A DNA stretch of 64,000 nt, taken from positions 1,488,001 to 1,552,000 of the forward strand of contig NZ_CP072377.1 in the NCBI RefSeq assembly GCF_018128225.1, written 5' to 3'. The notes under the pieces are model-generated. The model saw nothing but the letters and a program-made list of their open reading frames with translations. It was not told where the DNA came from and did no database searches. This stretch comes from Leptotrichia sp. oral taxon 218 (GTDB taxonomy: Bacteria > Fusobacteriota > Fusobacteriia > Fusobacteriales > Leptotrichiaceae). This document shows, piece by piece, positions 5,187 through 58,967 of this stretch (the stretch's first letter is position 1; every line of letters starts with the position of its first letter). Both the position numbers and the translations under genes were made by a program.

Positions 5187-6458
5187 TTAATAATTTGTTA
5201 TAATTTTTGACCTTATTCCCCGCTTTCGCAAATAAATAAAAAAATCTCGTTCTATTTCGTAATTTGTAGTCAAATTCCCAAAGTTTATATATATTTTTTT
5301 TGTATCGCTAATTACTCCAACTTTTACTTTACATCTCTTGCTAGGTGGTGGCAAAAATCTAAATCCCAAAATATATTTTTCGTATTTCGGCTCAATTCTA
5401 AAAATTCCCAAATTTGAAAATCCCGTCGTATATCCCCGCTCGCCGTAATAGTCAAAAATAAATGGAAAAAACATTCGCTTTATAAAATACGGGACTATTT
5501 GTATTAAAATATTCTCAACTGGATTCATCGCTTTATAAATACTTTTGTAAAACTCCTTTTCATTTATTTTAAGAGCAAAATAATTATCCAAATATGTGAT
5601 GATTTCCGAGAGCGAATAAGTCCCAAGACTTGCATCAATGCTTGGTGTTATGTTCATGAAAAAATTTCTGTAAGTATTTTCACAAAAAATTTTTCTCAAA
5701 TCCACAGGAACACCAATAACAATCGGATTTTTCGCACTTGAATATCTATCAAGTAAAATTTTAAAATAAACAGCGAGTAAATATTTTCCAATTGTTGTGT
5801 TATGTTTTTTACTTTCTTTTTTTATTTCACTTAAAAGAATTTCTCCTGTTGTTATATGATACTGACCTTTTTTTAATATCTTTAGTGGCAAATGAAATGC
5901 TGATTTTATTGTCACTTCTTTACTCACTTTTCGCAAATACTTTTCATATGAATTTACATATCCATCTTTTTCAACATTTTTGACTTCTTCAAAATTTTTT
6001 TCTTCTTCTGTTTCTGTGAAAAATTTCGTTTTATTTTTTATAAAAAAATATTTTCGTTCTAAATATTTTTCTATTAAATCTCTAAAAAATATCATAGCTC
6101 CCCCGCCGTCAGTCAAAAAATGAGCAATTTCCACCGAAAGTTTATTATTGTAATAAATTATTCTCAAAGGATTATTTTTTTGAATGTCTGTACATGGATA
6201 AGTTTTTTCTTTTTCGAGCATAAATCCAGTATTTTTTTCTTGAAGATAGTTCCAAAAAATTCCCTTTTTAAGCTCTGAATTAAAAAATGGATATTTTTTT
6301 TCCAAAAAAGGTAATATTTTCTGTAAAACTTCCAAGTCAACATTTTCCAAAAATTTAATGGAAAGTCTAAAACAAGTTGTTCTACCTTCACTTATGATAG
6401 AAGAATAAGTTTTTGCAAAAGCGTCTAATTTATACCAAACTTTTTCATTCTTTCTCAT
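5187..6458 (-). CDS. Condensation-domain (alcohol acetyltransferase-like) protein
   Basis: A 423-residue stand-alone acyltransferase of the CoA-dependent/condensation superfamily. The catalytic HxxxDG motif is visible as AHFLTDGGGAM near residue 112, and the second conserved patch is VIGVPVDLRK near 247. There are no carrier or adenylation domains, so it is not a peptide synthetase module. It is more likely an O- or N-acyltransferase resembling yeast-type alcohol acetyltransferases. It is the first gene of a two-gene unit with the zinc-ribbon membrane protein. The substrate cannot be read from sequence. Confidence 0.75.
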   Translation of the reverse strand: MRKNEKVWYKLDAFAKTYSSIISEGRTTCFRLSIKFLENVDLEVLQKILPFLEKKYPFFNSELKKGIFWNYLQEKNTGFMLEKEKTYPCTDIQKNNPLRIIYYNNKLSVEIAHFLTDGGGAMIFFRDLIEKYLERKYFFIKNKTKFFTETEEEKNFEEVKNVEKDGYVNSYEKYLRKVSKEVTIKSAFHLPLKILKKGQYHITTGEILLSEIKKESKKHNTTIGKYLLAVYFKILLDRYSSAKNPIVIGVPVDLRKIFCENTYRNFFMNITPSIDASLGTYSLSEIITYLDNYFALKINEKEFYKSIYKAMNPVENILIQIVPYFIKRMFFPFIFDYYGERGYTTGFSNLGIFRIEPKYEKYILGFRFLPPPSKRCKVKVGVISDTKKIYINFGNLTTNYEIERDFFIYLRKRGIRSKIITNY

Positions 6459-46021: not shown

Positions 46022-46050
46022 TTGACTTTTATATATTTTTATTATATAAT
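46022..46050 (+). promoter_or_regulatory. Sigma-70 promoter of small RNA copy 1
   Basis: TTGACT (46022-46027), a 17-base spacer and a perfect TATAAT (46045-46050). The predicted start is near G46057. Confidence 0.8.
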
Positions 46051-46056
46051 TATATT

Positions 46057-46165
46057 GCAGGTAGGGAGACTTACGCTGTATATCTGTGATGTCACTGAAT
46101 GAAAGTTTAAGCGTTATTTAAGAACGCCAGCCACAGAGCGCCACCATTTAGGTGGTATTTTTTTT
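46057..46165 (+). ncRNA. Structured small RNA upstream of a DUF3800 gene, copy 1
   Basis: A roughly 100-nt transcript with its own promoter and a terminator (CCACC-ATTTA-GGTGG then T-run, 46141-46165). Conserved pairings with copy 2 are TCTGTG (46083) with CACAGA (46132), and stem GCGTT-ATTTAAG-AACGC (about 46110-46127). The gene starts 16 bases beyond the terminator. Candidate RNAs upstream of DUF3800 genes have been described as the DUF3800 RNA motifs; I recall this but cannot say which class, if any, this is. Confidence 0.75.
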
Positions 46166-46180
46166 GAAAGGATTTTTTTT

Positions 46181-46864
46181 ATGGATATATTTGTCTATTC
46201 GGATGAATCTGGAGTTTTTGATGTTAAACATAATAAATATTATGTTTACGGCGGAGTAATTTTTTTGAATAAAAATGATAAAGATGTGGAAAACAGAAAA
46301 TATAAAAATATTGAAAAAAGTTTAAGAGAAAATAATAACTATTTAAAAAATAAAGAAATAAAAGCTTGTATATTAACTGGAAAACAAAAGTATAAAATTA
46401 TGAATGCAACAAAAAAAGTTATAAAATTTGGCGTTATAATAAACCAAAAAGAAATACACCCAAAAATTTTTGAAGATAAAAAAAATAAACAACGATACCT
46501 AGATTACGCTTACAAAATTGGAGTCAAAAATTGTTTAAAAAAATTGATAGCCGAGAAAAAAATATTAAAAGAAAAAGTAGAAAATATTTATATTTTCGTT
46601 GATGAACATTCAACAACAATAAATGGAAAATATGAATTTAAAGAAGGATTAATACAAGAATTTAAAAGCGGAACTTTTAATTCAAGCTATGAAGTATACA
46701 CAAAACCTATTTTTAAAAACTTAAAACATTTAGAAGTAAAATATTGCAATTCCGAAAAAACACCTATGATAAGATTAGCCGACATTACATCCAATTATTT
46801 ATATAGCGGTGTTTTAAACAACAAACCTATACAAGATACAATTTATTTAAAAATGTTACCTTAA
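46181..46864 (+). CDS. DUF3800 protein (predicted RNase H-fold)
   Basis: 227 residues with an AAAGGA ribosome-binding site just beyond the small-RNA terminator. The DUF3800 hallmarks are present: IFVYSDESGVFD at the N-terminus (acidic pair), YIFVDEHSTTING in the middle and MIRLADITSNYLYSG near the end, giving Asp/Glu residues that could form a nuclease-like centre. The family has no settled function. It is frequent in mobile regions and near structured RNAs. It lies outside the predicted element at 47025, between the hrcA promoter region and the left repeat. Confidence 0.85.
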   Translation: MDIFVYSDESGVFDVKHNKYYVYGGVIFLNKNDKDVENRKYKNIEKSLRENNNYLKNKEIKACILTGKQKYKIMNATKKVIKFGVIINQKEIHPKIFEDKKNKQRYLDYAYKIGVKNCLKKLIAEKKILKEKVENIYIFVDEHSTTINGKYEFKEGLIQEFKSGTFNSSYEVYTKPIFKNLKHLEVKYCNSEKTPMIRLADITSNYLYSGVLNNKPIQDTIYLKMLP

Positions 46865-47024
46865 ATAAATAAAAAAATACATAGAAAGCTATATTTTTTA
46901 TGAATTAAAATAAATATTTCAAAAATTTTGTGATTTAATAATCGATTTTTGAGAATATTCATAATTTTATATAAATATACACACATATTATCAGTAATAA
47001 AAAGATATGTTACCCATATGGCAA

Positions 47025-47051
47025 CATATCTAAAAAGGAGTTATGAAGAAA
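47025..47051 (+). repeat. Left end direct repeat (putative attL core)
   Basis: CATATCTAAAAAGGAGTTAT continuing to GAAGAAA, matching 58941-58967 with one mismatch. It is the 3' arm of a perfect hairpin (AGATATGTT pairs with AACATATCT) followed by GGAG and an ATG, so it could also be a conserved leader rather than an att core. Confidence 0.7.
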
Positions 47052-47102
47052 CAACATCCTTTTTAAAGAAAACCTAGTAAAATAAGGGCTAAATTTAAAA
47101 AA

Positions 47103-47122
47103 TAGTCCAACATTAGTCCAAC
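47103..47122 (+). promoter_or_regulatory. Paired 11-bp repeats (putative integrase arm site, left)
   Basis: TAGTCCAAC occurs at 47103 and 47114, exactly one 11-bp step apart. The same arrangement occurs at 58774 and 58785 at the other end. Tandem 11-bp arm repeats are typical of Tn916-like integrases. Confidence 0.6.
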
Positions 47123-47240
47123 AAGAAATTATGAGAACAAAATCTCTAATTTTATAAAAAAATTCAACATTATCTGTAAATTTTAAAAACAGAAAATCCA
47201 ACTAGAAACAATATTAAATTTAGTTATTATATCATTTTTT

Positions 47241-47273
47241 CTCACTATGTTAATTTAGATAGTGAGTTTTTTT
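47241..47273 (+). terminator. Rho-independent terminator near the left end
   Basis: CTCACTAT pairs with ATAGTGAG, followed by seven T. It insulates the element from transcription entering at the left end. Confidence 0.8.
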
Positions 47274-47281
47274 CTTGTAAG

Positions 47282-47367
47282 AGCCGATTTAAGAGTTTAT
47301 TTTTGTTATTCAAGGGAAAATATCAAAAATAAGTTTAAATGCTCTCTACGGGGCTTATACAGAGTTA
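47282..47367 (+). repeat. 86-bp direct repeat, copy 1
   Basis: AGCCGATTTAAGAG...ATACAGAGTTA matches 54487-54571 at about 79 of 86 positions. The two copies flank the toxin-antitoxin and membrane-protein half of the element (about 7.2 kb). Neither copy is coding. Confidence 0.85.
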
Positions 47368-47560
47368 TCCGAGATTGTATTTTTGACATAGTCTGTGAGA
47401 TAAAGGCACAGTATTTTGCAAAGCTATCCCTATAAGTATGGCACTATTTTCTTGATTCTAATTAGTGTGGCTTTGAAATACAAATAATTTTTTTTGAGAA
47501 AATTAGCAACCATTAATTTAATTTGTATAAATTGTTGTAAAAATTATGAAATTAAAAATC

Positions 47561-47589
47561 TTGACTTCTATATTTTTTTATTATACAAT
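47561..47589 (+). promoter_or_regulatory. Promoter of small RNA copy 2
   Basis: TTGACT (47561-47566), a 17-base spacer, TACAAT (47584-47589). It has the same layout as copy 1. Confidence 0.75.
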
Positions 47590-47595
47590 TATATT

Positions 47596-47696
47596 GCAGA
47601 TAGGAGACTAGACTGTATATCTGTGTAACTGAATGAAAGTTTAAGTGTTATGTAAGAATACCAGCCACAGAGCCACTATTATAGTGGTATTTTTTT
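47596..47696 (+). ncRNA. Structured small RNA, copy 2, upstream of a GNAT toxin-antitoxin-like pair
   Basis: Starts GCAGATAGGAGAC like copy 1, keeps TCTGTG...CACAGA, and has GTGTT-ATGTAAG-AATAC where copy 1 has GCGTT-ATTTAAG-AACGC. The C-G to U-A and G-C to G-U changes preserve the stem. It ends with CCACT-ATTAT-AGTGG and a T-run. Here it precedes a different gene family, so the RNA is not tied to DUF3800 alone. Confidence 0.72.
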
Positions 47697-47715
47697 AATA
47701 AAAGGAGTGATTTTT

Positions 47716-47901
47716 ATGGCTACAATAAGTTTTTTTAGAACACCAGAATTTAAGACAGATAAAGAAATTGATGGTTTAATAAAAGCCTTAGAGAATGATA
47801 GAAAGCCTAATTTAACAGATGTAAAAATAAGAACAATTACTGATGAAAAGGAAATAAAGGAATTATTGGGGTTAAATGATGGAAAAGATAACGTTGAGTG
47901 A
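47716..47901 (+). CDS. Small antitoxin-like partner of the GNAT protein
   Basis: 61 residues from ATG 47716 (AAAGGAGTGA upstream): MATISFFRTPEFKTDKEIDG, acidic at the end (KELLGLNDGKD). Its 3' end overlaps the GNAT gene by 26 bases. A short acidic protein coupled to an acetyltransferase fits a type II antitoxin, but no known DNA-binding fold is evident. It follows small RNA copy 2 directly. Confidence 0.55.
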   Translation: MATISFFRTPEFKTDKEIDGLIKALENDRKPNLTDVKIRTITDEKEIKELLGLNDGKDNVE

Positions 47902-48454
47902 ATTGTTGAAATATGATACAGAGGAAAATATAAAAAATAAATTTTTAAATAATTTTAAAAGTTTAGAAAACAATGATATAGAAAAATTTTTACATAACCG
48001 AGCAATTGAATTTGAGAAAAAATCTGTTTCAACAACTCATTTAGTATTTAACAACAAAAAATTAGTTGGTTATTTATCGTTGTCAAATAAAAGTTTAATT
48101 TTATCCAAAGAACGATTTGAAAAATTAAGTAATAGCCGAAAGAAAAAATTAATGCAAAGTGGACAAATACTTGAAAATGGACATTTAGCTGTAAATAGTT
48201 ACTTAATTGGACAATTAGGAAAGAACTATAATTTAGCAAAAGAAGAACAAATAAAAGGAAAAGACTTGCTCTCATTTGGATTCAATTTATTGCTGGAAGT
48301 AAAAAAAATAATGACGGCACGTTATGTTTGGCTAGAATGTGAAAATTCTGAAAAACTTATAAATTTTTATAGAACGTTTGGATTTGAAAAAGTAGATGAT
48401 TTTATTTCTGAAGATGGATTTGTTGTTATGATAATGAAGTTGGATGAAAAATAA
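47876..48454 (+). CDS. GNAT-fold acetyltransferase, probable toxin
   Basis: 192 residues. GNAT features are LVFNNKKLVGYLSLSNKSLI, the acetyl-CoA region around LAVNSYLIGQLGKNYNLAKEEQIKGKDLL, and YVWLECENSEKLINFYRTFG with the closing FGFEKV. It resembles TacT/AtaT-like toxins, which acetylate aminoacyl-tRNA and have an alpha/beta loop like this. It overlaps its small partner. Whether it is a toxin is inferred from context. Confidence 0.7.
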   Translation: MMEKITLSELLKYDTEENIKNKFLNNFKSLENNDIEKFLHNRAIEFEKKSVSTTHLVFNNKKLVGYLSLSNKSLILSKERFEKLSNSRKKKLMQSGQILENGHLAVNSYLIGQLGKNYNLAKEEQIKGKDLLSFGFNLLLEVKKIMTARYVWLECENSEKLINFYRTFGFEKVDDFISEDGFVVMIMKLDEK

Positions 48455-48515: not shown

Positions 48516-48794
48516 ATGCCAACGGTTAGTACAAGTATAAAAATAGATGCCAAAACAAAGAAAGAAGCACAAGAATTATTTAAAGATATGGGAATGAGTT
48601 TAACTGCAGCAATAAATATATTCTTGAAACAGGCAGTAAGAGAGCAGAGAATACCTTTTTATGTTGGAGAGCCAAAATATAAGGAAGAAGTTTATCAAGC
48701 TATGAAAGATGTAGAACAAGGTAAGAATTTGAGCAAGTCTTATCATAGTGCTAGAGAAATGATAGAGGATATTTTGAAAGATGAAGATGAATAA
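48516..48794 (+). CDS. RelB/DinJ-family antitoxin
   Basis: 92 residues. The ribbon-helix-helix start VSTSIKIDAKTKKEAQELFK and GMSLTAAINIFLKQAVREQR is the RelB/DinJ signature. The C-terminal tail wraps the toxin. It is preceded by AAAGGAGTGA and overlaps the toxin gene by 14 bases. It should repress its own operon when bound to toxin. Confidence 0.9.
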   Translation: MPTVSTSIKIDAKTKKEAQELFKDMGMSLTAAINIFLKQAVREQRIPFYVGEPKYKEEVYQAMKDVEQGKNLSKSYHSAREMIEDILKDEDE

Positions 48795-49065
48795 GTATAA
48801 TTTAAAATATACAAATAGGTTTTCTAAAGATTTAAAATTAATAAAAAAGCGTGGGTATAATCTAAAATTACTTGAAAAAGTAGTTGAAATATTGATTAAT
48901 CGTGAAAAATTGTCTGTAAAAAATAAAGATTATGCTTTAAAAAATAAATATTTAGGGTATCGTGAGTGCTGTATAACATCTGATTGGTTGTTAGTATATA
49001 AAATAAAAGGTGAGGAATTAATATTTCTAACAACGAAAACAAAAACTCCGAGCAGTTTATTTTAA
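48781..49065 (+). CDS. YafQ/RelE-family mRNA interferase toxin
   Basis: 94 residues: KYTNRFSKDLKLIKKRGYNL, then ECCITSDWLLVYKIKGEELI and a C-terminal TKTKTPSSLF. This fits the YafQ branch, which cuts mRNA in the ribosome, although the usual catalytic His at the very end is missing here (Ser-Ser-Leu-Phe). That raises the possibility of reduced activity. It is co-translated with the RelB-type antitoxin. Confidence 0.85.
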   Translation: MKMNKYNLKYTNRFSKDLKLIKKRGYNLKLLEKVVEILINREKLSVKNKDYALKNKYLGYRECCITSDWLLVYKIKGEELIFLTTKTKTPSSLF

Positions 49066-49341: not shown

Positions 49342-49668
49342 TTATTTAAATTTTTCTTTAAAAAAGGCATTTTGAATCTTATTGAATAACTCTTCTTTTT
49401 CCTTAAAATCTATATTTTCATTATTAAAGAACGATATAATAGATGATTCTAAATTACTGGAATCTTTATTTATACCGTATAATATGTATTCAGGTGAAAC
49501 ATTATATAAATTAGATAACTTAATTAAACTCTCACTATTTATTTTCCTCTCGTTATTTTCATATCGTGAAATAGCACCAGCAGATGATTTTATTTTTCTA
49601 GCCACTTCTTCCAAAGAAAATTTATACTTTTCTCTCAAACTCTTTAATCTTTTTCCTACATTTTCCAT
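49342..49668 (-). CDS. XRE-family HTH regulator
   Basis: 108 residues with a canonical Cro/CI helix-turn-helix (RLKSLREKYKFSLEEVARKI, then SAGAISRYENNERKINSESL) and a short C-terminal helical region. It is divergent from the AbiE operon, with a 21-bp palindrome between them (49705-49725), a likely binding site. It may control the AbiE genes and itself. Confidence 0.85.
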   Translation of the reverse strand: MENVGKRLKSLREKYKFSLEEVARKIKSSAGAISRYENNERKINSESLIKLSNLYNVSPEYILYGINKDSSNLESSIISFFNNENIDFKEKEELFNKIQNAFFKEKFK

Positions 49669-49725: not shown

Positions 49726-49875
49726 AATTGAAATAATAATGATAAATTTTATTTTTATGGTACAATTATTTTACTAATTACCAAATAAATAAAAGATATA
49801 AAATTTGAATAAAATCTTGACAATTACTCTTTAAAATATTAAAATTAAAGTGTAATAGTAAAGGTAGTGATAATT

Positions 49876-50475
49876 ATGTTAAAAATTACAAATGATAAAT
49901 TAAATAATTTTTTTGAAAATAGTACTATAATAACAGTTAAGAAAGCAGAAAAAATTGGTATAAAAAGACAGACACTTTCTAATTTATGTAAAAAAGGGAT
50001 TTTAGAGAGAGTAAAGCAAGGGGTTTATCAGAAAAGTGATACAATTACAGATGAATTTATGAAAATACAAAAAAATAATAATGTGATTTTTTCAAACACA
50101 ACCGCTCTATACTTTCATAATTTAACTGATAGAGTGCCAAATACGATTTCAATAACAGTTCCACAAGGTTACAATGTTTTACATATTACGAAAAAATTTG
50201 AAAATTTGAAAATTCATTATGTGAAAAAGGAAATATTTGAAAGTGGAAAAATTGAAACTTTGAGTAAAATGGGTGCTAAAATTTATATTTATGATAAAGA
50301 GAGAACGATATGTGATATTATAAAAAATAAAGAAAAAATTGATGTAGATGTATTCTCAAAGGCACTAAAATTATTTTTTAAAGATAAAGATATAAAAGTA
50401 AGAAAATTAATAAAATATAGTAAAGAATTGAAAGTTGAGAAAAAAGTAAGAGAATATTTGGAGGTTTTGATATGA
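49876..50475 (+). CDS. AbiEi-family antitoxin (type IV)
   Basis: 199 residues from ATG 49876. The winged-helix start (KKAEKIGIKRQTLSNLCKKG, then ILERVKQGVYQKSD) is typical of AbiEi, and TALYFHNLTDRVPNTISITV is the family core. It represses the operon and counters the AbiEii nucleotidyltransferase encoded immediately downstream with a four-base overlap. Type IV pairs give phage abortive infection or stabilise mobile elements. Confidence 0.88.
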   Translation: MLKITNDKLNNFFENSTIITVKKAEKIGIKRQTLSNLCKKGILERVKQGVYQKSDTITDEFMKIQKNNNVIFSNTTALYFHNLTDRVPNTISITVPQGYNVLHITKKFENLKIHYVKKEIFESGKIETLSKMGAKIYIYDKERTICDIIKNKEKIDVDVFSKALKLFFKDKDIKVRKLIKYSKELKVEKKVREYLEVLI

Positions 50476-51305
50476 CATCAGAAAAGTTAAAAGGGAAAAT
50501 AAAAAGTTTTTCAGAAAAAAATAATTTAAAAGCACAGGAAGTATTACAAATGTATTTTTTTGAAAGATTTTTGACTCGATTAGAAAAATCAAGATATAGA
50601 GCGAAATTTATAATAAAAGGTGGATTTTTAATTTCATCAATTATTGGTATACAAAATAGAACAACGATGGATATTGATACAACAATAAAAGGACTTCCAG
50701 TAAAAGAGGAAATTATTAAAGAAATAATATTGAAAATTTTAAGTATCGAAGTAAATGATGGAATAGAATTTGTATTGGGAAAAATAGAAAATATAAGAGA
50801 AATATCGGAATATGAAAATTATAGATTACATTTGACAGCAAATTTTGAGAAAATAAAGAATCCATTAAAAATTGATATTACAACAGGAGATGTCATAATT
50901 CCATCAGAAATAGAATATTCATACGAAACAATATTTAAAGAAAAACTAAATATTTTGGTTTATTCATTGGAAACATTGATTGCTGAAAAGTATGAAACTA
51001 TAATAAAACGAAATATTACAACAACGAGATTGAGAGATTTTTATGATATTTATATGATTTTTAAATTGAAAAATGATAAAATAAATGTAAATAACTTGAA
51101 ACAAGCGATTAGGGAAACGGCAAAAAATAGAAATTCAACAGAAGAAATATTAGAAAGCAAGGAAATTTTAGAAGATATTAAAAATGATGAATATTTGAAT
51201 AAACAATGGAATATTTATAAAAATGAAAATAAATATGTTGATAATATACAATTTTCTGAAATTTTGAAATTACTAAATAAAATAGCAGATATTGTACAAG
51301 AATAG
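50472..51305 (+). CDS. AbiEii nucleotidyltransferase toxin
   Basis: 277 residues. The nucleotidyltransferase active site is visible: FIIKGGFLISSIIGIQNRTT followed by MDIDTTIKG (GG...S and DxD). The middle has KIDITTGDVIIP and the family-specific ETLIAEKYETIIKRNITTTRLRDFYDIY. AbiEii toxins transfer nucleotides to tRNA or other targets. It is co-translated with AbiEi. Confidence 0.9.
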   Translation: MTSEKLKGKIKSFSEKNNLKAQEVLQMYFFERFLTRLEKSRYRAKFIIKGGFLISSIIGIQNRTTMDIDTTIKGLPVKEEIIKEIILKILSIEVNDGIEFVLGKIENIREISEYENYRLHLTANFEKIKNPLKIDITTGDVIIPSEIEYSYETIFKEKLNILVYSLETLIAEKYETIIKRNITTTRLRDFYDIYMIFKLKNDKINVNNLKQAIRETAKNRNSTEEILESKEILEDIKNDEYLNKQWNIYKNENKYVDNIQFSEILKLLNKIADIVQE

Positions 51306-54456: not shown

Positions 54457-54486
54457 AAAACAAAAGAGAAAATTTTTTATTGTAAC

Positions 54487-54571
54487 AGCCGATTTAAGAG
54501 CTTATTTTTGTTATTCGAGGAAAATATCAAAAATGAGTTTAAATGCTCTCTACAGGGCTTATACGGAGTTA
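54487..54571 (+). repeat. 86-bp direct repeat, copy 2
   Basis: AGCCGATTTAAGAGCTTATT...ATACGGAGTTA; partner of 47282-47367 with about seven differences including one gap. Confidence 0.85.
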
Positions 54572-55202: not shown

Positions 55203-55856
55203 TTATTTTTTATCCTCAAAATCTTCAAAAAAATCAAAATCTTTTGTATTATTATTTTCTGTATTATCATTTTCAAGTAAACGTACTTGTGTATCATTAT
55301 CAATTTTTTTTATATGGTTATCCATATCTTTAAAAAACATATAAGAATAGTCAATAAGAATATTTCTTAAAAATTGTATTTGAAACTGAAGATTATTGAT
55401 TGTCCAGTAAATATTCACAAGATATTCAGGGTCAGAACTTCTTATATTAAAAACATTCTTTTCTTCATCAATGTAAATTTCAAATCCAACTGCTTCTAAA
55501 AATTTTAAAATGTGATAAATAAATTGCTTTCCTTTTGATATAGATAAAAATTTTTCATCATTAGTGGAAAAATCATAATTTTCAATATCTATATTAGGTT
55601 CTTCTTCTGAGAAAAAATCCTTAAAAAACCTATCACTATTTCTATCTTCTAAAAAGTTACGTATAGGTACTTTAAAAAAATCAGCTAAAACTCTTAGATT
55701 TTCTATACTTGGAGTATTTAACCCTTGTTCATATTTAGTTATCATTGCTAATGAAATTCCAGTTTTTTCAGCTAATCCTCTTTGAGTAAGATTCTTTTTT
55801 TTTCTCAACTCTTTCAATATTTCCTTAAAATTTTCCTTAAATTTTGTTTTTGCCAT
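55203..55856 (-). CDS. CI-like XRE repressor of the element
   Basis: 217 residues from ATG 55856, which has a strong AGGAGG upstream. An N-terminal helix-turn-helix (KNLTQRGLAEKTGISLAMIT, then KYEQGLNTPSIENLRVLADF) is joined to an acidic C-terminal region with FFSEEEPNIDIENYDF. The C-terminal half does not show the Ser-Lys LexA protease pair clearly. It is divergent from the Rep operon, whose promoter carries a TATCCA palindrome, so it probably controls replication/excision genes. Confidence 0.8.
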   Translation of the reverse strand: MAKTKFKENFKEILKELRKKKNLTQRGLAEKTGISLAMITKYEQGLNTPSIENLRVLADFFKVPIRNFLEDRNSDRFFKDFFSEEEPNIDIENYDFSTNDEKFLSISKGKQFIYHILKFLEAVGFEIYIDEEKNVFNIRSSDPEYLVNIYWTINNLQFQIQFLRNILIDYSYMFFKDMDNHIKKIDNDTQVRLLENDNTENNNTKDFDFFEDFEDKK

Positions 55857-55885
55857 ATTCTTCCTCCTAATTTTTAAATACAGTA

Positions 55886-55914
55886 TTGACAATTTTATAA
55901 AATCGTGGTATTAT
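55886..55914 (+). promoter_or_regulatory. Promoter of the Rep-integrase operon
   Basis: TTGACA (55886-55891), a 17-base spacer, TATTAT (55909-55914). The repressor gene diverges 30 bases to the left. Confidence 0.8.
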
Positions 55915-56145: not shown

Positions 56146-56913
56146 TTGAACAGGGAAGAAGAGTATATTGGGTATTATAAGAAAAGCATTGAAATATATG
56201 AAAGAGAAGATTTTAAAGATATTATTTCTAAAAAGAAATTATTGAATGTGAAAAATTGTTATAATGAGTACTTATATTGGTATGAACATCCAGAATGGCC
56301 TCATAAAATTTTTAGATGTAAAAAATCATTTTGTCCTATATGTGATATGAAAAATAAAAGAATGATGTACTATAAGCATAAAGACAGGGCCTTAAAGCTA
56401 GAAAAGAAATATAACTTGTTTATACTAGTCTTAAATGGTAATAATGTTGAAATTAAAACTGATAAGATAAATAAGGAAATAAAGGATAACAATGAAAAGT
56501 TAAAAATATTATTAAGCAGGCCCTTTATTGAGAAAGTTGTGAGAGGATATTTTAAAGTAATTGAAATTAGTTATACTTACTATGATTCACTTCCACATAT
56601 TCATATTATTTTATTTACAATAAGAGGCATATACAAACATTTCAAGATGAGTGAATTTAAGAATATGATTACACAAGAATGGAGAAATTTAAAAGGATTC
56701 AATGCAAATGTGTATTTAAAAAGTTTAGGAACAAAGGAAAAAATAGAAAAGGAGGTCTCTTATTTGACAAGACATAATAAAAAACAGTTATATAATTTGC
56801 TTAATTTAGATAGTAATGTCGTTAAGGTTCATTTAGAAGTAATTCAGAATAAAAGATTTTTTGTTTGGAGTAAAAATATATTAAAAGAACTGAAATTAAA
56901 TAGCTATACTTAA
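56146..56913 (+). CDS. Rolling-circle replication initiator (HUH, Rep_1-like)
   Basis: 255 residues from TTG 56146 (GGAAAGTGATAAGGA upstream). A zinc motif RCKKSFCPICDMKNKRMMYY near 65 precedes motif I (NLFILVLNG), the HUH motif LPHIHIILF near 157, and motif III EVSYLTRHNKK with the probable nicking Tyr. This layout is that of pUB110-type plasmid Rep proteins. It implies that the element can replicate as a circle after excision. Confidence 0.82.
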   Translation: MNREEEYIGYYKKSIEIYEREDFKDIISKKKLLNVKNCYNEYLYWYEHPEWPHKIFRCKKSFCPICDMKNKRMMYYKHKDRALKLEKKYNLFILVLNGNNVEIKTDKINKEIKDNNEKLKILLSRPFIEKVVRGYFKVIEISYTYYDSLPHIHIILFTIRGIYKHFKMSEFKNMITQEWRNLKGFNANVYLKSLGTKEKIEKEVSYLTRHNKKQLYNLLNLDSNVVKVHLEVIQNKRFFVWSKNILKELKLNSYT

Positions 56914-57584: not shown

Positions 57585-57670
57585 ATAAATATATTGCAAT
57601 GAAAGAAAAATAATATTAAAATTATAAAGTAGATAATGCTTTTTAGTTGGATTTTCAGAATGGAGAAAAT

Positions 57671-58735
57671 ATGAAAAAGTATAAAAATGCAAATGGTACA
57701 GGGAGTATAACAAAAGTTAAAATAAATAGAACGAATCCTTTTAGAGTTAGAGTTACTAATCCTGTAACTAAAAAAAGACATTCTTTGGGATATTTCAGCA
57801 CTAAAAAAGAAGCAACAGAAATATTAAATAAATATTTTAATAATCCTTACAATTTAGAAAATCATAGAATTAAATTTAAAGATTTGTTTGAGTTATTTAA
57901 AAACAGTAAAAAAGATATTGTTGCTAAAAATACTTTGAACAGTTACATCAATAGTTTTAAACGATGTAAAGAATTACATAATCTGGTTTTTAAAGATATT
58001 AGCACTCCAGTATTGCAAAATCTAATAAATGATTTAAATTGTAGTATTTCAACTAAAAGTATAACAAAAGGATTTTTAAAAATTTTTTGGGACTATGCGA
58101 GAGAAATAGACATATTGGAAAAAAATAGAACAGAATTTATAAATTTACCAAAAGAAACTGAAATCAAAGAAAAAAAACCTTTTAATTATGATGAAATAGA
58201 AAAATTATGGGAAAACACGGATATAATATGGGTAAAATATATTTTAATTATGATTTATACAGGTATGAGAATCGAAGAAACTGTAGAATTGAAAAAGGAA
58301 AATGTAGATTTACAGCAGGAATTTATACACGGTGGAAATAAAACTAGAAAAGGGAAAAATAGAAGCATACCTATTCATAAAGATATAGTTGAAATTATAA
58401 AAGAGCTTTACGAGAACAGTCCAACAGATTATTTGATATACAATGATAAATGGATATTCAGTAAAAAAAAGAATGAGAATAAGCCTTTAAGAAAAAATTA
58501 TTTTCGTGAGAAATTTTATAAAACATTGGAAACTTTAAAAATTAATAAACATAAACCTCACGATTGCAGAAAAACACTAGCGACACTTATGAGTAATCAA
58601 AAAATAAATAATATTGTGATAACAGATATAATGGGACACGAAAATATTACGACAACAAAACAATATTATATTCAGACAGATAAACAAAAACTAAAGTTAT
58701 CAATGAATAGTTTAAATTTTAGAAAAACTTCATAG
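57671..58735 (+). CDS. int: Tyrosine recombinase / integrase
   Basis: 354 residues from ATG 57671 (TGGAG upstream). An AP2-like arm-binding N-terminus (GSITKVKINRTNPFRVRVTN, HSLGYFSTKKEATEILNKYF), a SAM-like core domain, then the catalytic domain: IYTGMRIEETVEL (Arg I), KPHDCRKTLATL (His-x-x-Arg), MGHENITTTKQYY (His and nucleophilic Tyr). It would recombine the 27-bp repeats, one of which lies 205 bases downstream. Confidence 0.92.
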   Translation: MKKYKNANGTGSITKVKINRTNPFRVRVTNPVTKKRHSLGYFSTKKEATEILNKYFNNPYNLENHRIKFKDLFELFKNSKKDIVAKNTLNSYINSFKRCKELHNLVFKDISTPVLQNLINDLNCSISTKSITKGFLKIFWDYAREIDILEKNRTEFINLPKETEIKEKKPFNYDEIEKLWENTDIIWVKYILIMIYTGMRIEETVELKKENVDLQQEFIHGGNKTRKGKNRSIPIHKDIVEIIKELYENSPTDYLIYNDKWIFSKKKNENKPLRKNYFREKFYKTLETLKINKHKPHDCRKTLATLMSNQKINNIVITDIMGHENITTTKQYYIQTDKQKLKLSMNSLNFRKTS

Positions 58736-58940: not shown

Positions 58941-58967
58941 CATATTTAAAAAGGAGTTATGAAGAAA
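58941..58967 (+). repeat. Right end direct repeat (putative attR core)
   Basis: CATATTTAAAAAGGAGTTAT continuing to GAAGAAA. It forms the 3' arm of a 10-bp hairpin (AAATATGCTA with TAGCATATTT). The hairpin changes relative to the left copy are compensatory. Confidence 0.7.

Follow-up and report, generated by a model that had tools for sequence, protein, structure and literature searches.

DUF3800-I RNA, apparent partner of a predicted RNase HII-like protein family, and a probable exchange of cargo behind one of its two copies in Leptotrichia

In a 64,000-nt stretch of contig NZ_CP072377.1 (hereafter the window), Leptotrichia sp. oral taxon 218 carries two copies of a unit composed of a sigma-70-type promoter, an RNA, an intrinsic terminator, a ribosome-binding site and a gene. 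The RNA belongs to the DUF3800-I family (Rfam RF02969) and, on the sequence comparisons reported here, is the partner of one protein family, DUF3800, in a pairing that is near-obligate. The protein is, by the fold predicted for it in a structural model only, an RNase HII-like nuclease. On balance, the whole is best explained if copy 1 is a type III-like RNA-DUF3800 pair, akin to type III toxin-antitoxin systems, and copy 2 is what remains of another such pair after an exchange of its cargo. Together, the near-obligate pairing, the occurrence of two gene orders and the RNase HII-like predicted fold give the RNA a testable role, either as an RNA antitoxin or as an RNA cofactor.

Both copies lie on the forward strand. 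In copy 1, a promoter found by motif scan (TTGACT-17-TATAAT, 46022..46050) is followed by the RNA, which starts with GCAG and runs to the U run of its terminator (46057..46165); the terminator stem, found by terminator scan (46140..46156), precedes a T run, and the ATG of a 227-aa DUF3800 protein follows at 46181. In copy 2, the same scans place the promoter (TTGACT-17-TACAAT) at 47561..47589 and the terminator stem at 47672..47688; the RNA occupies 47596..47696, with its GCAG at 47596, and the next ATG, at 47716, opens a 61-aa open reading frame (ORF) that overlaps a GNAT acetyltransferase gene. An earlier note on this DNA had proposed two such promoter-RNA-terminator copies and a possible kinship with the named DUF3800 RNA motifs, and the covariance search bears out both points: the full RF02969 model matches 46050-46168 with 84.7 bits and 47589-47698 with 89.8 bits, well above the gathering threshold of 44.2 (E = 9.8e-12 and 9.1e-13 over the window). 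A search of the whole genome found only these two copies and no third. Their similarity starts about 7-12 nt upstream of the -35 box, and the promoter is thus part of the repeated unit. Promoter matches were rejected as stand-alone evidence (20 in the window versus a mean of 14.7 in shuffles); terminator-like sites stand above chance (3 versus a mean of 0.3). While both copies fit RF02969, copy 1 has an adjoining DUF3800 gene and copy 2 does not; gene-first loci and the exchange of cargo behind the RNA are observations of the present analysis. The family was reportedly described by Weinberg and colleagues in 2017; the portions of the literature reached by full-text searches on DUF3800 state no function for the RNA.

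Is the fold of this RNA under selection? Homologs were collected with a DNA pattern built from the RNA core, which returned 17 viral and 39 genome records and sees only RNAs with an intact core. Two loci, L032 and L047 (L and G numbers denote loci and genomes), did not match our covariance model R1 and were dropped, leaving 54 pattern loci, among which L019 repeats L016 and L069 repeats L027. The core was found in 72 of 78 RNA loci (in none of L132-L137), 59 after removal of near-duplicates. The alignment holds 55 distinct RNAs, most of them chosen by the core pattern: L012, L014, L016 and L043 were omitted from the 59 and several ends were trimmed, and leaving out L014, a decayed RNA, favours the structure result. 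For these 55 RNAs, RNAalifold predicts 29 base pairs, with 97.7% of cells paired and changes on both sides in 19 of the 29 pairs; none of 500 shuffles equalled the observed values, and slid controls reached at most 49.1% pairing. The selected structure that the earlier note had proposed from the two window copies is thus present as covariation in further homologs. Of the two paired changes on which that proposal was built, the terminator's shift from CCACC/GGTGG to CCACT/AGTGG is a double change, as claimed, but the shift of the stem from GCGTT/AACGC to GTGTT/AATAC contains one double change (C-G to U-A) and one wobble (G-C to G-U); the corresponding stem in the G073 copy reads GTGTT/AACAC. 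A promoter with at least 9 of 12 matches lies directly upstream of the RNA in 50 of the 59 loci, versus 3.8% of letter shuffles, and a discrete RNA of about 100 nt, predicted to have its own start and stop, is well supported. Its long unpaired part is the most conserved region, and no variable guide-like stretch is seen by eye in the 55 aligned RNAs; no tandem repeat was found inside either window RNA body, a short A+T repeat at 46029-46056 falling in the promoter.

Within the phylum, 14 copies of the RNA were found in 11 of 98 genomes, under filters that could miss weak matches. Samples of two other classes seldom have it: it occurs in 7 of 391 genomes, in one of which it scores below the family cut-off, and in 5 of 398, each sample including a centre genome picked for having the RNA. 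One locus, L133, lies below the Rfam threshold at 39.9 bits. Genomes akin to that of the window share their RNA loci with records of Oceanivirga miroungae and Streptobacillus notomytis.

How closely is the RNA tied to DUF3800? A protein profile, A2, was built from 34 of the 37 RNA-linked DUF3800 genes, with L024, L028 and L050 omitted as near copies. It retrieved 36 viral loci, on contigs of which the RNA pattern had already supplied 11, and a strong RNA match lies directly upstream of the gene in 34 of these loci. The other two are L207, with a weak match (26.2 bits, E = 0.0036) that by eye is an intact divergent RNA, and L208, which begins at the gene. A PF12686 search of 21 genomes of the phylum gave six matches, five of these proteins having the RNA upstream and the sixth being L075 of G073, and the RNA-first pair is found also on the satellite phage Javan632 and on a Lactobacillus gasseri plasmid. 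A divergent DUF3800 query, in turn, found six viral loci in which RF02969 lies downstream of the gene (6/6), an order shared by Streptococcus phage Javan73; in L134-L137, the RNA begins 15 to 79 nt past the end of the DUF3800 frame and has a promoter-like site with 10-11 of 12 matches. In two viral records, a Skipping-rope RNA (RF02924) stands directly after a gene-first pair (L172 3354-3431, L173 2328-2411).

These gene orders bear on the idea that the RNA is a cis-acting leader, a riboswitch or attenuator acting on any gene placed behind its terminator. Such a leader would fit the spacing, as the start codon lies at most 36 nt after the U run in 37 DUF3800 genes. However, the position of the RNA downstream of the gene in the divergent branch, with a promoter-like site of its own in all four loci tested, makes a leader acting only in cis unlikely; RNAs without DUF3800 also count against it, several having no close same-strand gene behind them, and Rfam types RF02969 as a small RNA (sRNA). 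The leader reading, which we consider most improbable, was rejected on the gene-first loci.

What kind of protein is the partner? The window protein (46181..46864, forward strand) matches PF12686 with E = 9.4e-11. Its AlphaFold2 model, based on an alignment of the 34 RNA-linked proteins, has a predicted local distance difference test (pLDDT) score of 92.6, and the top Foldseek match of this model is RNase HII (1eke_A; E = 5.4e-6, probability 1.00, template modelling score 0.57). D8, E9, D141 and D201, all present in the window protein, are invariant across the 34 proteins, in an order that would fit the DE-D-D catalytic quartet of RNase HII. By sequence, DUF3800 has no match among solved structures up to E 1; NCBIfam gave no match for DUF3800, the 61-aa ORF or GNAT, and PADLOC none up to E 0.01 for DUF3800, the small ORF, GNAT, RelB or YafQ. 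An RNase H fold of a DUF3800 protein was reported earlier, likewise from a model, in the passages of PMC10910872 that concern it.

An RNase HII-like predicted fold would also suit a nuclease that uses the RNA as its cofactor or guide, in an RNA-protein effector whose RNA is needed for activity and not for restraint. A TPR-DUF3800 protein is described in the relevant part of PMC10910872 as accompanying Cas12a2, and no protein of the subfamily was seen without the RNA where the flank could be examined. Against an effector of this kind stand the RNAs themselves, which by eye lack a variable guide-like stretch and are most conserved in their long unpaired part, and the persistence of the RNA where the protein is gone: in a set of 22 genomes, most of them picked because they have orphan RNAs, the protein profile matches nothing in 12 and only fragments in G074. 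We find the cofactor role rather unlikely, and return to restraint of the nuclease by its RNA.

The RNAs without a protein deserve a closer look. The 54 pattern loci comprise 32 with an intact gene behind the RNA, three cut by the end of the DNA (L025, L038, L052), five with a broken gene (L021, L045, L056, L058, L062) and 14 with none in the 256 nt to 10.7 kb of DNA examined; 19 of the 54 RNAs, then, adjoin no intact DUF3800. The RNAs beside the five broken genes, and that of L129, score well (74.1-107.3 bits). In G074, a broken DUF3800 is preceded by an RNA whose -35 box reads TCGACT; this RNA has lost stem pairs, scores 49.3 bits and is identical to the window copy at 87 of 105 positions, versus 50 of 56 in the flank; the RNA before the GNAT operon of the same genome is intact (89.6 bits). 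In viral contig L021, the DUF3800 gene behind the RNA is frameshifted, and a relative of the window GNAT lies, by eye, 1.0-1.6 kb behind the RNA core on the opposite strand.

Why would an RNA outlive its protein? Orphan RNAs such as copy 2 might be kept as immunity against DUF3800 brought in by phages or other elements, a form of anti-addiction. DUF3800-I is indeed carried by viral contigs, by a satellite phage and by a plasmid, and the orphans keep their fold and are conserved above their flanks in two of three comparisons. Yet the RNA is deleted in G080 and G076, and copy 2 could persist only because its promoter drives the GNAT operon; as an account of the orphans, immunity seems unlikely to us.

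How could an RNA and a nuclease work together? In AbiF/RCd22, from a Clostridioides difficile prophage, the RNA was shown to counteract the toxic AbiF both in cis and when supplied in trans (PMC12373285). The locus is like DUF3800-I in having a promoter, an RNA of about 100-130 nt, an intrinsic terminator, a toxic gene without its own promoter and a prophage as carrier, although DUF3800 would be toxic only by analogy. It differs in that the toxin is an Abi_2 protein, not an RNase HII-like one, and in that RCd22 has two repeated motifs where the window RNAs lack a tandem repeat. This analogy, together with the asymmetry of RNAs found without the protein, makes an RNA-restrained nuclease the most likely arrangement. 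Transcription from one promoter would then yield abundant RNA and, when it reads through the terminator, a small amount of mRNA; the RNA would bind the nuclease and keep it inactive until a trigger such as infection upsets the balance. Copy 1 would be such a pair with its DUF3800 gene intact. Copy 2 would be a relic pair in which DUF3800 was replaced by a GNAT toxin-antitoxin operon and RelB-YafQ, joined behind the terminator.

The earlier note had likened the arrangement to type III toxin-antitoxin loci, and the likeness holds for the layout of copy 1: in type III systems (ToxIN, TenpNI and CptNI in the part of PMC12373285 that names them; AvcID), an RNA and a protein gene appear likewise to share one unit with a terminator between them. 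It fails for the RNA and for the fold. Antitoxins of the ToxIN type are repeats, as far as that source describes them, and DUF3800-I RNA has no tandem repeat and can lie behind its gene; the fold of ToxN differs from that predicted for DUF3800, whose best match is RNase HII. Lacking repeats and having an RNase HII-like predicted fold, the pair falls outside the type III definition, but it may work like type III. We tentatively raise the possibility of a new class of RNA-neutralised toxin, in which an RNase HII-like nuclease would be held by a single-unit structured RNA that lies on either side of its gene and is carried by phages, satellites and plasmids, and orphan RNAs would persist as immunity after the nuclease was swapped for other toxin-antitoxin cargo.

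Several points weigh against the pairing and restraint proposed here. (i) The 34 viral loci are not independent of one another: profile A2 derives from RNA-linked proteins, and several loci are nearly identical. (ii) R1 finds the RNA in three of the six gene-first viral loci, and the other three rest on the Rfam model (68.2 bits). (iii) Two distant DUF3800 proteins, L075 (G073) and L166 (G110), have no such RNA in the DNA examined. (iv) A nuclease that needs the RNA as its cofactor would likewise never be found without it. (v) The count of orphans is biased, as decayed RNAs are invisible to a pattern that depends on the core, and some gene breaks come from metagenome assemblies and may be errors. 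(vi) In score, the 14 RNAs without DUF3800 (64.2-112.0 bits) resemble the 32 with the gene (46.0-112.5). (vii) Orphan RNA is more conserved than its flank in two of three comparisons (GNAT/CapRel, 88/98 versus 44/62; CapRel/RelB, 95/103 versus 48/64), and copy 2 may therefore be useful in itself; in the third (GNAT/RelB, 84/98 versus 54/62), the RNA was counted as not above the flank.

What happened behind copy 2 is best read from its surroundings. Copy 2 sits 0.5 kb inside the left end of a 12-kb integrative element, defined by an integrase, attachment (att) repeats and a site common to relatives; copy 1 lies outside, just left of attL. The two ends, both on the forward strand, are attL (47025..47051), which has 26 of 27 bases in common with attR, and attR itself (58941..58967), a 27-base repeat adjoining a feoB-like gene (the FeoB name comes from reading the protein only); sequence comparison shows a left-end region U (47052..47560) common to relatives. 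A left-end query matches 13 of 13 genomes of the genus searched, with both ends on one contig in nine of them, 9 to 13 kb apart, and the feoB-like gene follows attR in all eight element copies where that DNA could be examined.

Thirteen element copies, some partial, were mapped: seven have the RNA and six do not. The gene behind the RNA is the GNAT operon with RelB-YafQ in three (the window, G074 and G073a), DUF3800 in one (G069), a CapRel-like gene in two (G073b and G078, 97% identical to each other) and RelB in G075, where this unit is the remnant left of a second element. The CapRel-like protein of G078 has as its best solved structure 7ZTB (residues 17-350 of 354, E = 7.6e-25), which comes from the study of CapRel SJ46, a fused toxin-antitoxin whose account, in the part seen, mentions no RNA partner (PMC9712102). 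In G080 and G076, the -35 box of the RNA is kept, the RNA is absent and the sequence continues as it does after the terminator in G075; the RNA is deleted here and RelB-YafQ is kept. Copy 2 is best explained by a cargo exchange at this slot. In G075 (L140), two tandem elements occupy a single att site, and the left one has shrunk to the RNA, RelB, a helix-turn-helix (HTH) protein and an integrase remnant. The two window copies were probably left by a similar succession of two elements that used one attachment site, with copy 1 as the remnant of the older.

Could the RNA instead be a general regulator that serves unrelated toxin-antitoxin or defence genes, as the earlier note had suggested in speaking of an RNA that recruits different effectors? 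In the genus of the window, all non-DUF3800 genes behind the RNA are of toxin-antitoxin or defence-like kinds (the GNAT pair, CapRel-like, RelB), and outside it a SocA-like antitoxin is found close to the orphan L054, and AbiEii close to an RNA of one Mycoplasma prophage. The genus cases, however, replace one another at a single slot of one kind of element, in which the gene varies by genome; the RNA is gone from two RelB-YafQ versions, and in G075, by eye, RelB has its own promoter and the RNA promoter, which scores 6/12, has a shortened spacer. Nor do most relatives of GNAT have the RNA: 36 of 39 matches lack it beside them. Of ten proteins scanned with Pfam near nine orphan RNAs outside the genus, four have no family; the other six are two integrases, a dockerin protein, an NrtR-like regulator, a serpin and a SocA-like antitoxin. 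These mostly non-toxin-antitoxin neighbours count against a general link. The recruitment of different effectors thus did not survive the comparison of cargoes, on which a general toxin-antitoxin partner, to our mind very doubtful, was rejected in favour of one RNA paired with DUF3800 and a slot that exchanges its contents.

The present cargo of copy 2 starts with the 61-aa ORF (47716..47901), a putative antitoxin by position and without a Pfam match, and the GNAT acetyltransferase (47876..48454; PF13673 at the cut-off, 23.6 bits), the putative toxin, both on the forward strand. The GNAT protein has no match among solved structures by sequence up to E 0.1. A small gene overlapping a putative GNAT toxin gene is the layout of a type II GNAT toxin-antitoxin pair, and each of the 19 loci read has a small ORF (about 54-79 aa) ahead of its GNAT gene. 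The 39 GNAT matches come from 21 of 98 genomes, and the three with the RNA in front are each 100% identical to the query; the 19 loci read upstream are these three and 16 others, and none of the 16 shows the RNA. In six of these 16, the closest relatives (L080-L084, L098), TTGATT and TATAAT boxes precede the small ORF by eye. That promoter is missing in the three RNA copies, where the ribosome-binding site follows the terminator, so the operon should depend on the RNA promoter and on terminator read-through. Copy 2 would be kept mainly because the GNAT operon needs its promoter. The window may also illustrate how a toxin-antitoxin operon can pass into the control of a foreign small RNA's promoter and terminator, and so one way in which a mobile element may swap the defence cassettes it contains.

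Further along the element, on the forward strand unless stated, lie RelB/DinJ antitoxin (48516..48794; PF04221, TIGR02384) and YafQ/RelE toxin (48781..49065; PF15738, TIGR02385) genes; an HTH protein gene on the reverse strand (49342..49668), placed behind the cargo slot by family search and mapping and found in 8 of 13 mapped element copies; AbiEi and AbiEii (49867..51305; family and PADLOC searches); an HTH repressor-like protein on the reverse strand (55203..55892; PF01381); a Rep_1 replication protein (56146..56913; PF01446); and the phage-type integrase (57647..58735; PF00589). A 100-nt stretch of the left end (47268-47367) is repeated near the middle of the element (54473-54571) with 92% identity. 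A dispersed repeat behind the cargo was ruled out, the genome having one full copy and six short partial ones.

Orphan RNAs elsewhere have neighbours of several kinds. RNAs without DUF3800 occur in Mycoplasma prophages; in L154, where the neighbour is confirmed as AbiEii, about three imperfect repeats of about 40 nt (6170-6310, also in L153) lie behind the orphan RNA and before this convergent gene and by eye resemble a repeat-type RNA. Viral record L016 (3871-3965, also L019) has a DUF3800-I-like RNA of 64.2 bits with, by eye, no usual terminator and with no DUF3800 gene, in a stretch seemingly rich in other structured RNAs. Of the three RNAs in the Aerococcus genome G103 (L054, L127), one accompanies DUF3800; the other two are similar orphans whose first stem is shortened, and behind one of these (L054) lies the SocA-like antitoxin gene, in convergent orientation. 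Finally, orphan or gene-first RNAs adjoin phage integrase genes in L007 (1783-2802) and L023 (1744-2910), both by Pfam, and, by eye, in L136.

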